Shown: one piece after another, positions 51,567 through 59,218 of the stretch
Layout: each line of letters starts with the position of its first letter
How positions within the stretch are numbered: position 1 is the stretch's first letter
DNA from: Streptomyces coeruleorubidus
GTDB taxonomy: Bacteria; Actinomycetota; Actinomycetes; Streptomycetales; Streptomycetaceae
Assembly: GCF_028885415.1 (NCBI RefSeq)
Contig: NZ_CP118527.1
Span: 8,184,001 to 8,248,000 of the forward strand
Direction: 5' to 3'
Length of the DNA stretch: 64,000 nt
Position numbers and translations under genes: made by a program
The notes under the pieces: generated by a model
The model's input: the letters and a program-made list of their open reading frames with translations, nothing else
Databases searched by the model: none
What the model was told of the DNA's origin: nothing

Positions 51567-52328
51567 TCAGCTCGCGACCAGTTCCCGCACCTGGCGCCGG
51601 GCCGGGGGCTCCTCGACCCGCGAGGTGCGGTACAGCCACAGCACATCACGCCCGAACGACCACACCAGCAGGCCCAGGGCCAGGGCCGCGACCCCGAAGT
51701 TGGCCGCGTACGGCAGCAGATCGGCGCCCGCCAGCAGCAGAAGCACGCCCTGGAGTGCCGCGACCGTCTTGCGGGCGGTGCTCGGCGGGAGGGCGGCGGT
51801 CAGCCAGGGCCAGATGCGGGCCGCGCCGACGAAGACGTACCGCATACCGCCGATCAGCAGCACCCACGGGCCCAGTTGCATCGACACGTACACGCTCAGC
51901 ACCAGGATCAGGAACGCGTCGACCTCCATGTCGAAGCGCGCGCCCAGCGGGGTGGAGGTGCCGGTGCGGCGGGCGACCTTGCCGTCGACGCCGTCGAGGA
52001 TCAGGGCCACCGCCGTCAGGCCGACGAACAACGACACGGGCGGCGAGCTCTGGAAGGAGTCCGCGACCAGCGCGGTGACGCCGCCGACGAGGGTGGCCCG
52101 GCCGAGGGTGACCCGGTTCGCCGCGCCGAACGAGCGCAGCCGGGAGCGGTGCAGGGCCCGGGAGAGCACCGCCCAGGTGGCGATCGCGAACGCGAGGCCG
52201 GTCAGCCAGCCCGCCGGGCCCATCCCGATCGCCGTGCCGATCAGGGCCAGCAGCAGGATCTGCACGCCCGCCCCCAGGGCGGTCTCCTGCTGTACGAGCC
52301 TCGCGTCGTAAGTGTTGTTCAGGGCCAC
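51567..52328 (-). CDS. CDP-alcohol phosphatidyltransferase family protein
   Basis: A 253-residue membrane enzyme. The CDP-alcohol signature [26 protein letters not shown] (D-G-x2-A-R-x8-G-x3-D-x3-D pattern, D at both ends) is at about residues 118-145, flanked by six or so membrane segments ([55 protein letters not shown]). The enzyme displaces CMP from a CDP-alcohol to make a phosphodiester, as in phospholipid synthesis. The GTG at 52328 follows GGAGGG by six bases. It is divergent from the dehydrogenase and may supply or use a phosphodiester in the neighbouring cluster. Confidence 0.88.
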
Positions 52329-52436
52329 CGAACACCCTCCGGCCGTGTGACAGAGTCGATCAACGCCGCTACCTTGTGCGCGGCCTGTGCACCCCTCGGT
52401 ACGCAAGCAGCTTCCCGATCGTTCAGGAGGACTTCG

Positions 52437-53417
52437 ATGAAGCACACCGGACGTGCGTTCTGGATCGACTCGCCTGGGCGAGGCGGTATCCGGGACGTCG
52501 CCCTGCCGGAGCCCGGCGAGGGCGAGGTGCTGGTCCGCACGCTGTACTCCGGCGTCAGCCGCGGCACGGAGACGCTCGTCTTCCGCGGCGGCGTGCCCGT
52601 CAGCCAGCACTCGGCCATGCGGGCGCCGTTCCAGGAGGGCGACTTCCCGGGGCCGGTGAAGTACGGCTACCTCAACGTCGGTGTGGTGGAGGAGGGCCCC
52701 GAGGCGCTCGCCGGCCGTACGGTGTTCTGCCTCTACCCGCACCAGACCCGGTACGTCGTCCCGGCGAGCGCCGTCACGCCCGTACCGGACGCCGTGCCGG
52801 CCGAGCGGGCCGTGCTCGCGGGGACCGTGGAGACCGCCGTCAACGCCCTGTGGGACGCCGCGCCCCTGGTCGGCGACCGGATCGCCGTGGTCGGCGGGGG
52901 CATGGTCGGCTCCTCCATGGCCGCGCTGCTCGCCCGGTTCCCCGGCGTCCGCGTCCAGTTGGTCGACGCCGACCCGGGCCGGGCCGGGATCGCAAAAGCG
53001 CTGGGCGTGGGCTTCGCCTCTCCCGAGGACGCCCTCGGCGAGTGCGATCTGGTCGTCCACGCCAGCGCCACCGAGCAGGGCCTCGCCCGGTCCCTGGAAC
53101 TCCTCACCGCCGAAGGGACCGTGCTCGAACTGAGCTGGTACGGCGACCGGCGGGTGAGCGTGCCGCTCGGCGAGGCCTTCCACTCCCGGCGGCTCGTCAT
53201 CCGCTCCAGCCAGGTCGGCACCGTCTCCCCGGCCCGGCCGAACCGCACCTACGCCGACCGGCTCGCCCTCGCCCTCGACCTGCTCGCCGACCCGGCCCTC
53301 GACGCCCTGGTCACCGGCGAGTCCGCCTTCGAGGACCTGCCGGACGTGCTGCCGAGGCTCGCCTCGGGCGAGATCCCGGCGCTGTGCCACCGCGTCCGCT
53401 ACGGCGAGAGCGCCTGA
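52437..53417 (+). CDS. Medium-chain (zinc-type) dehydrogenase
   Basis: A 326-residue MDR-superfamily oxidoreductase. The catalytic domain opens with [38 protein letters not shown], a form seen in BchC-like dehydrogenases, and the nucleotide-binding domain has [23 protein letters not shown]. The Cys/His zinc ligands of classical alcohol dehydrogenases are not obvious, so it may be zinc-free. AGGAGG stands six bases before the ATG. It is the first gene of the plus-strand run that continues, after 112 bases, into the PTPS homologue, and could oxidise a sugar or cyclitol hydroxyl in that pathway. Confidence 0.85.
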
Positions 53418-53529
53418 CCTGAGAAAAGACGTACCGGAGGCTGAACAGGGGAAGGCAAGGAGCCGTACTACTCGGCATCCCCGGCACCATGGCGGGGGAG
53501 CAGACGCGCCGCACCTGGAGGGTCGTCCG

Positions 53530-57912: not shown

Positions 57913-58517
57913 CCGGACATGCCGAGGGTGAGCAGATGACGCCGGTCGTCAGCGACGAAATCGGAAGTCTCATAACCGGGTCGGAGCATTTCGGGATGAG
58001 CGTGCAGAAGGATGGAGGTCTCTATTTCCCCCGCGTGCATGTCGGTGAGCAGCGAGGTGAGCACACCCGCCCGCTCCCGCGCCGCCTCCCAGTCCTCCGG
58101 GGCCGGGAACAGCGCCATCCGCTCGCCGCGGGCGGAGGATTCCTGAACGACGTTGCCCAGCACGTAGTTTCCGCCGTGCCCGTTGACCACCACCAGGGCG
58201 TCGACGCCCGACCGGCGCAGCGAAGCCGCTATGTCCCGTACCACCGCATGAAGGGTCACCGAGGAGATGCTCACGGTCCCCGGCCAGGCCGCGTGCTCGT
58301 GCGAGCAGGAGATCGTCACCGGAGGAAGGAGGTGCACCGGGTACGCGCCGGCTATCTCCCGCGCGACGGCACAGGCGACGAGCGTGTCGGTCGCCAGCGG
58401 AAGATACGGACCGTGCTGCTCGAAGCTGCCCACGGGAAGCACCGCGACCTGCCGTGAGACACCGGCGCCCCGCGTCCGTACGTCTTCCGTGGTGTCCGCC
58501 GGCACCAGATCACTCAT
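57789..58517 (-). CDS. Creatininase family amidohydrolase (possible ArfB-like deformylase)
   Basis: A 242-residue member of the creatininase family. Metal ligands fit at Glu33, His35 and Asp44 (PVGSFEQHGPYLPLATDT), His114 (VVVNGHGGN) and the Glu in MHAGEIETS. The family includes creatininase, MftE of mycofactocin and the archaeal ArfB, which removes formate from the FAPy-type product of GTP in riboflavin/F420 synthesis. Here it lies 41 bases from a GTP cyclohydrolase II homologue thought to stop at that very intermediate, so a deformylase role is a strong hypothesis. It runs opposite to its neighbours, overlaps the membrane-protein gene tail to tail, and shares a very short promoter region with the cyclohydrolase gene. 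Confidence 0.9.
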   Translation of the reverse strand: MSDLVPADTTEDVRTRGAGVSRQVAVLPVGSFEQHGPYLPLATDTLVACAVAREIAGAYPVHLLPPVTISCSHEHAAWPGTVSISSVTLHAVVRDIAASLRRSGVDALVVVNGHGGNYVLGNVVQESSARGERMALFPAPEDWEAARERAGVLTSLLTDMHAGEIETSILLHAHPEMLRPGYETSDFVADDRRHLLTLGMSGYTDSGVIGRPSLGSAEKGKELLASLADSFGAYFSLLTSDE

Positions 58518-58558
58518 AACGACACGGCCTTTCGTCTCTGCTTAGGAACTCGAGAATC

Positions 58559-59218
58559 ATGACAGAAAAAATTGGCGTACTCGGCAAGAAGTCCCCGCAG
58601 CGGACCGGCGTGGAACGCGTCGTGAATGCGCCCTTGCCCACCGTGTACGGGAAATTCCAGGCGGTCGGCTACCTGGACCACGACCGCGGTGACGAACAAG
58701 TGGCGCTGGTCTACGGCGACCTCGGCACCGACGACGTGCTCATCCGGCTGCACTCGGAATGCCTGACCGGCGACGCCTTCGGCTCCCAGCACTGCGAGTG
58801 CGGCGACCAGCTCGACGCCGCCCTGCGCGCGGTCGTCGCCGAGGGCGCCGGTGTCGTCGTCTACCTCAGAGGGCATGAGGGCCGCGGTATCGGCCTGCTC
58901 GCCAAGCTGCGCGCGATGGCCCTCCAGGCGGAGGGTCTGGACACCGTCGAGGCCAACCTCGCCCTCGGCCTGCCGGTGGACGCCCGCGACTACGGCGTGG
59001 CGGCCCGGATCCTCGACGACCTGGGCGTCAAGTCCGTGCGCCTGATGTCCAACAACCCGCGCAAGCGCGAGGCGCTGGTGAACCACGGCATCGAGGTCGC
59101 CGAGCAGGTGCCGCTGCTGATCCCGCCGTGCGAGAACAACATCACCTATCTGCGGACCAAGCGGGAGCGCCTCGACCACCACCTGCCCCACCTCGACGCG
59201 GTGGTCAGCTCCTCCTGA
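58559..59218 (+). CDS. GTP cyclohydrolase II homologue with Met120 (SCO6655-like)
   Basis: A 219-residue RibA-family enzyme. Zinc ligands are Cys68, Cys79 and Cys81 (HSECLTGDAFGSQHCECGDQ); GTP-site residues follow in VVVYLRGHEGRGIGLLAKLRAMALQ. The residue equivalent to E. coli Tyr105 (IRAYALQ) is Met120 (LRAMALQ). In S. coelicolor SCO6655 the same Met was reported to stop the enzyme at 2-amino-5-formylamino-6-ribosylaminopyrimidinone 5'-phosphate instead of the deformylated riboflavin precursor. So this is probably not the riboflavin enzyme but a dedicated first step of the local cluster. AGGA lies about ten bases before the ATG. Confidence 0.93.
   Translation: MTEKIGVLGKKSPQRTGVERVVNAPLPTVYGKFQAVGYLDHDRGDEQVALVYGDLGTDDVLIRLHSECLTGDAFGSQHCECGDQLDAALRAVVAEGAGVVVYLRGHEGRGIGLLAKLRAMALQAEGLDTVEANLALGLPVDARDYGVAARILDDLGVKSVRLMSNNPRKREALVNHGIEVAEQVPLLIPPCENNITYLRTKRERLDHHLPHLDAVVSSS

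Follow-up and report, generated by a model that had tools for sequence, protein, structure and literature searches.

Described systems and the gene cluster of the window

Two proteins of Streptomyces coelicolor, SCO6655 and SCO6650, were reportedly described by Spoonamore, Bandarian and colleagues in 2006 and 2008; we know of no pathway, reductase partner, cross-phylum cluster or product given in that work. In archaea the early steps of riboflavin and Fo synthesis are carried out by GTP cyclohydrolase III, the ArfB deformylase and an ArfC-type reductase, and the cyanobacterial and chlorobial pterin glycosides, such as tetrahydrobiopterin (BH4)-glucoside, cyanopterin and tepidopterin, start from FolE and an active 6-pyruvoyltetrahydropterin synthase (PTPS). 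We analyzed a stretch of 64,000 nucleotides from Streptomyces coeruleorubidus (contig NZ_CP118527.1, positions 8,184,001 to 8,248,000; the window), which carries at 51567..59218 a cluster of eight genes, among them members of the SCO6655 and SCO6650 families. With a probability of about one half, this cluster serves a dedicated pathway that runs alongside folate and riboflavin synthesis and converts GTP into a glycosylated, methylated, 6-substituted pterin-like compound. On sequence grounds it appears to be a real, widespread and uncharacterized pathway with predicted chemistry. The first-pass annotation had called it undescribed; since two key enzymes were reportedly already described for S. 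coelicolor, this holds for the pathway and the product and not for these enzymes. In the open PMC subset no paper on the cluster as a pathway or on its product was found, and among the papers listed PMC2853524 names SCO6655 once.

All eight genes of the first-pass annotation could be located with Pfam and NCBIfam profiles, the dehydrogenase of the MDR (medium-chain dehydrogenase/reductase) family and the methyltransferase by weak family matches only:

51567..52328, minus strand, CDP-alcohol phosphotransferase family (CDP-OH_P_transf; Pfam PF01066, E 4.8e-13)
52437..53417, plus strand, MDR dehydrogenase, BchC-like/polyol-dehydrogenase-like (best NCBIfam model bchC, below cutoff)
53530..53928, plus strand, PTPS-like T-fold protein, SCO6650 orthologue, TTG start (Pfam PF01242, E 7e-23; PDB 3d7j)
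53925..55130, plus strand, GT4 glycosyltransferase (Pfam PF00534; MshA-like matches)
55127..56386, plus strand, class I S-adenosylmethionine-dependent methyltransferase (Methyltransf_25, E 7e-5, below its cutoff)
56383..57912, plus strand, LPG_synthase_TM/UPF0104 flippase-like membrane protein (PF03706, E 7e-31)
57789..58517, minus strand, creatininase-family amidohydrolase, candidate formylamino-pyrimidine (FAPy) deformylase (PF02633, E 1.7e-61)
58559..59218, plus strand, GTP cyclohydrolase II (GCHII) homologue, putative FAPy type with Met120 (PF00925, E 8.6e-67)

The genes for PTPS, GT4, methyltransferase and flippase are joined in that order by the four-base overlaps GTGA, ATGA and ATGA, in agreement with the four linked genes of the first-pass annotation. 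The MDR gene is located 112 bases upstream of PTPS, and the CDP-alcohol phosphotransferase gene is divergent from it. The creatininase and GCHII genes are also divergent, with 41 bases between them, and the creatininase gene runs antisense to the flippase gene with an overlap of 124 bases. A genome search revealed one PTPS, three GCHII and one creatininase copy. As relatives have a reductase gene in the cluster and this genome has one at another place, the functional unit possibly extends beyond the eight genes.

Compared with the S. coelicolor proteins, the window PTPS is an orthologue of the solved structure 3d7j, and Met120 of GCHII is located at the described switch position. The likeness to the archaeal riboflavin/Fo start, proposed here from the genes, would consist of the formation of FAPy from GTP, a creatininase-family deformylase and a reduction ahead of deamination, but the cyclohydrolase is of another family, the window creatininase fits ArfB poorly (E 5e-9), and the pathway would go on to MDR, T-fold protein and GT4, not to lumazine synthase. 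As in the pterin glycosides, the product, as far as it can be predicted from genes, would be a pterin glycosylated by a glycosyltransferase, whereas the route proposed here would use GCHII, RibD_C and MDR and not FolE with an active PTPS.

Proposed pathway

In the proposed pathway, GCHII with Met120 would open GTP to FAPy, and the creatininase-family protein would strip the formyl group, leaving 2,5-diamino-6-ribosylamino-pyrimidinone 5'-phosphate. A RibD_C reductase, encoded in cis in relatives and elsewhere in this genome, would convert the ribosyl into a ribityl chain with retention of the 2-amino group, and the polyol-dehydrogenase-like MDR may oxidize this chain, most likely at C2'. The T-fold PTPS homologue is predicted to bind the 2-amino-4-oxo ring and to close it with the 5-amino group to a neopterin-type 7,8-dihydropterin, which GT4 and methyltransferase would then decorate. 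Finally, the flippase-like protein would export the product, and the CDP-alcohol phosphotransferase possibly provides a phospho-lipid form. Reduction at C1' and oxidation at C2' would result in the same aminoketose that GTP cyclohydrolase I makes by Amadori rearrangement, and this route fits a reductase, a polyol-type dehydrogenase (a weak match), a T-fold protein which keeps its ring-binding Glu and lacks the PTPS catalytic residues, and the aldolase of one branch.

A dedicated supply from GTP through a diaminopyrimidine to a ribityl compound, feeding a core of MDR, T-fold protein and GT4, is probable by somewhat better than even odds. Closure by MDR and T-fold protein, decoration and export are the most tentative of the predicted steps, and an exact dihydroneopterin-type outcome is doubtful. 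Still more doubtful is the most far-reaching version, a pterin synthesis independent of GTP cyclohydrolase I, in which RibD_C and MDR would replace the Amadori rearrangement and a non-classical T-fold protein would close the ring before glycosylation and methylation, with export or lipid attachment in many lineages, a spread over several phyla and one branch that adds an aldolase. The proposed pathway assigns defined substrates to all its enzymes, and a new pterin-like cofactor, pigment or lipid might be found at its end. The cluster could also explain why a cyclohydrolase that makes FAPy and a PTPS homologue lacking the PTPS residues are maintained in S. coelicolor. The RibD_C reductase step, the RibD_C-deaminase in trans, the aldolase branch and the spread outside actinobacteria were not foreseen in the first-pass annotation.

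Co-conservation of the cluster genes

The order MDR-PTPS-GT4 on one strand is found in 148 of 160 loci, a count that takes in truncated contigs; MDR and GT4 are each present in 156. These loci combine two sets with at least two records in common. Set 1 consists of the window and 79 neighbourhoods (all 57 further places of the class search and 22 of 33 further places), obtained from PTPS searches which gave matches in 82 of 396 genomes at phylum level, 20 of these at 55% identity or more, and in 57 of 394 at class level. Set 2 consists of 80 loci from named genomes, the best 80 of at least 576 confirmed matches to the motif FGPA[QST]x[LVM]HG[AHV], so that the FGPA/HG motif is fixed by choice in this set. 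The 14 kb neighbourhoods of 16 weak PTPS matches were used as control. Flippase matches overlapping RibD_C on the opposite strand were an artefact of a read-through query and were taken out before the final counts, and three apparent GCHII rows without the GCHII motif (L218, the second of L231, L260) were discarded. Clusters formed from open reading frames proved to be antisense artefacts for the most part and were set aside.

Where at least 3.5 kb lay on each side, MDR and GT4 shared the strand of PTPS at a distance of up to 3 kb in 68 of 69 and 58 of 63 loci. Fifteen of the 16 controls are canonical QueD proteins (Cys...HGH), and neither MDR nor GT4 was detected in any of these 15 loci. The sixteenth control, L275, encodes a divergent PTPS-like protein with neither the QueD nor the FGPA motif near homologues of MDR, GT4 and GCHII; it is possibly a third branch. 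The full set of eight genes was found in each of the 20 PTPS-positive Streptomyces loci of set 1 and in eight of nine in set 2. The first-pass annotation had been prepared to give up the pathway if the genes were not co-conserved; with the conserved trio and the complete Streptomyces clusters this objection clearly falls away. A set of genes maintained in Streptomyces, Chloroflexota, proteobacteria and other phyla must have a useful product.

Pairwise distances of PTPS correlate with those of MDR (r 0.94), methyltransferase (0.93), flippase (0.87), GT4 (0.86) and CDP-alcohol phosphotransferase (0.85), and the values for RibD_C (0.64) and GCHII (0.59) are lower. Thus the core is inherited together and the supply enzymes are exchanged. 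At L097 the genes GCHII-RibD_C-MDR-PTPS-GT4-MT (MT, methyltransferase) form a single run.

The T-fold protein

The PTPS-like protein matches the PTPS profile (PF01242) and the fold of 3d7j. It shares with the QueD/PTPS family the T-fold profile, His14, His28 and the ring-binding Glu, but contains FGPA in place of the QueD cysteine, and the third zinc His is replaced by Ala. The QueD cysteine before the HGH motif is absent from its signature FGPAxxxHG, and FGPA, His28-Gly29 and Glu120 are conserved in 79 of 79 aligned rows. Glu120 presumably serves as the ring-binding Glu and would suit a 2-amino-4-oxo ring. The third zinc position reads HGA in 127 loci including the window, HGH in 31 and HGV in one, and is truncated in one, half of the 160 loci having been chosen by a motif that permits Ala, His or Val there. 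The description of this protein as inactive-looking in the first-pass annotation is correct for classical PTPS chemistry, for which the cysteine is missing, but does not hold otherwise, as the protein keeps a signature of its own.

GTP cyclohydrolase II and creatininase

The window GCHII matches the riboflavin-type profile PF00925 and contains Cys68, Cys79 and Cys81, which we take to be the zinc cysteines. The riboflavin-type Tyr at the switch position is absent; Met120 (codon 58916-58918) is found where RibBA of the same genome has Tyr. The SCO6655 work reportedly ties the choice between FAPy and the deformylated product to this residue, and the assignment as a FAPy-type homologue in the first-pass annotation is consistent with this exchange.

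The GCHII proteins of the clusters belong to at least three lineages. Among the 46 typed in set 1, 32 have a residue other than Tyr (M, L, H or Q) and 14 have Tyr. A creatininase gene accompanies 31 of the 32 non-Tyr enzymes, and in L121, where it does not, one is found about 10 kb past the flippase gene; within the fetched stretch no creatininase was found in any of the 14 Tyr-type loci. L114 contains a creatininase and has a Leu-type GCHII just beyond its stretch. After removal of the false rows, set 2 comprises nine non-Tyr loci with creatininase, 13 Tyr loci without and three with it. In three f94 genomes that have no dedicated GCHII, the cluster creatininase is absent too. Across 32 aligned rows, the creatininase residues Glu33, His35, Asp44, His114 and Glu164 are conserved at 93% or more.

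In 20 Streptomyces genomes without the PTPS homologue, the best matches to the window GCHII are 56-62% identical and lie in frames of at least 433 residues; all 13 whose switch residue was read (plus strand only) are of the Tyr type. A creatininase at 58-60% identity is present in two of the 20. One of these PTPS-negative genomes (G222, locus L181) contains a decayed C-terminal piece of GCHII with 70% identity over 53 residues and retains the RibD_C-deaminase in trans; perhaps it has lost the cluster.

RibD_C reductase in cis and in trans

In many relatives from several phyla a RibD_C reductase gene adjoins GCHII or MDR; the window cluster does not contain one. The cluster proteins of relatives differ from bifunctional RibD in that they consist of the reductase domain without a deaminase (four of four examined by Pfam). 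In two cases the highest-scoring NCBIfam model was that of the archaeal 2,5-diamino-6-ribosylamino-pyrimidinone 5'-phosphate reductase, below its cutoff. The S. coeruleorubidus genome itself encodes a RibD_C-deaminase fusion, in which both domains are present in reversed order, at another location (L123:7095-9624; G000 C1, about 4.668-4.671 Mb). Beside it are located a gene that by eye appears MarR-like and a Tyr-type GCHII, whose lineage also occurs within clusters such as L050. TTCAAA-like repeats between the genes of L123 resemble operators.

Among 20 PTPS-positive Streptomyces, 16 have the trans RibD_C-deaminase and four have a RibD_C in the cluster, never both and never neither. In the 20 PTPS-negative Streptomyces listed, the trans form is present at full length in two and split in four more (Fisher p for the trans form against PTPS 2e-5, or 4e-3 counting split forms, uncorrected for relatedness).

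Counter-evidence and alternative explanations

Several results weigh against the proposed pathway. No MDR was seen in four loci and no GT4 in four; GCHII was seen in just 71 of the 160 loci, after removal of two false rows from 73, and RibD_C in 88. The ninth Streptomyces locus of set 2, L239 (Streptomyces sp. CBMA152), has MDR-PTPS followed by RibD_C only, in a different layout, and its 14 kb gave no match to GT4, methyltransferase, flippase, creatininase or GCHII. GCHII also occurs in four of the 15 QueD controls, one of them with a RibD_C-like match as well, so that a GCHII beside a PTPS-fold gene is not special alone. Three proteobacterial loci (L203, L242, L248) combine creatininase with a Tyr-type GCHII, which rules out that a creatininase always goes with a GCHII without tyrosine; their creatininases fall into a separate clade in a tree with long branches. 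Since the non-Tyr GCHII proteins paired with creatininase form one clade, this association has essentially one origin, and the link of the two genes is suggestive and not a rule. The window creatininase is more similar to MftE (TIGR03964, 128.2 bits, cutoff 172) than to ArfB (NF033501, 36.2 bits, E 5e-9, cutoff 180), both below cutoff. This and the three Tyr-type loci weaken the simple reading of the creatininase as FAPy deformylase in the first-pass annotation, whereas its dedicated GTP-derived pathway gains from the co-conserved GCHII, creatininase, T-fold protein, glycosyltransferase and methyltransferase. The polyol likeness of MDR comes chiefly from its nucleotide-binding domain. The aldolase FolB was absent within 8 kb from all 127 HGA loci, the branch of the window. 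All but one of the 34 genomes tested for FolE have it, so that a second route to dihydroneopterin seems redundant, and folate supply was rejected as the main purpose. Lastly, since the reductase encoded in trans in S. coeruleorubidus includes a deaminase domain, a lumazine-type, deaminated intermediate is conceivable.

Such an intermediate, 5-amino-6-ribitylamino-uracil, could lead to a lumazine- or flavin-like glycoside if the T-fold protein condensed the diamine with a small carbonyl compound. The fusion protein of the 16 Streptomyces points in this direction, as do adjacent matches to the reductase and deaminase halves in six of six f94 genomes tested, but the cluster reductases examined have no deaminase and the Glu that would fit a 2-amino-4-oxo ring is invariant in the 79 aligned rows; we consider this outcome unlikely. 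Alternatively, the T-fold protein and MDR could act on dihydroneopterin made by FolE, with RibD_C as a dihydropterin reductase and GCHII and creatininase as a separate neighbouring function. The presence of FolE in nearly all genomes tested would agree with this, RibD_C has the dihydrofolate reductase fold, and GCHII is unseen in over half of the loci and also found near QueD. The occurrence of GCHII of at least three lineages in the clusters argues against it, as do the distant, Tyr-type GCHII of PTPS-negative Streptomyces, the decayed GCHII piece in one of these and the adjacency of RibD_C and GCHII in several phyla, and we regard it as rather improbable. There is a slight chance that the T-fold protein is a binding or regulatory protein and no enzyme, and that the cluster makes a pterin-controlled lipid or cell-surface glycan. 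CDP-alcohol phosphotransferase, flippase-like protein, sulfatase-like domain and GT4 are of the lipid or glycan type and the classical PTPS catalytic set is missing; yet MDR and PTPS are the tightest pair in the distance correlations, and a branch in Rubrobacter and Chloroflexota has MDR-PTPS-GT4 with no match to CDP-alcohol phosphotransferase or flippase.

Distribution and branches

Holders of the T-fold protein in set 2 include Rubrobacter, Thermomicrobiales, Chloroploca, Rhodospirillales, Thauera, Variovorax, Lamprocystis and Polyangium, and further Arthrobacter, Nocardioides and Micromonospora. Among metagenome-assembled genomes, whose taxon labels may be wrong, two belong to Gemmatimonadota, and Acidobacteria, Planctomycetota and Spirochaetaceae are represented by one each; the Spirochaetaceae genome has only MDR and PTPS.

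The HGH branch comprises the 31 loci of Rubrobacter and Chloroflexota. It contains FolB (dihydroneopterin aldolase) in 27 and RibD_C in 30 loci, and no match to CDP-alcohol phosphotransferase, flippase or creatininase was found in the 31. In Chloroploca, FolB is located inside the run MT-FolB-RibD_C-MDR-PTPS-GT4. Within 8 kb, the 127 HGA loci contain methyltransferase in 92, CDP-alcohol phosphotransferase in 78, flippase in 71, GCHII in 67 (two false rows among them), RibD_C in 57 and creatininase in 50 cases. A PlsC-type acyltransferase gene is divergent from the cluster and adjoins FolB in 18 Rubrobacter loci, e.g. L085:6040-7014; PHP and AlaX genes beside the Rubrobacter clusters were treated as mere neighbours.

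Remaining proteins and neighbouring genes

PDB profile matches of MDR are iditol, xylitol, galactitol-phosphate and ketose dehydrogenases, chiefly across the nucleotide domain; the canonical GHE zinc motif was not seen in the window protein. The flippase-like family occurs in 73 of the 160 loci. The methyltransferase family of the window is present in 93, and a different methyltransferase was matched in 16. The N terminus of the window methyltransferase is a low-complexity Gly/Pro-rich extension, encoded by about 4.9 copies of a 51-base tandem repeat (55250-55503).

Homologues of the CDP-alcohol phosphotransferase are present in 80 of 160 loci. DxxDGxxAR...GxxxDxxxD, which we take to be the family motif, is intact in the window protein, and across 50 aligned rows its residues are conserved at 93% or more. 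The domain is part of a frame of 755-841 residues in L051, L052, L072 and L076; in L076 it is fused to a sulfatase-like domain, and a sulfatase-like gene is adjoining or nearby in L050 and L047.

Downstream of the cluster, at 59367-61575, are located AlaDh_PNT_N and saccharopine-dehydrogenase-type genes. They were excluded from the cluster because matches in set 1 are few (10 of 81 loci, a figure that includes the window and L123) and mostly set off by a gap, and are probably a separate pair.

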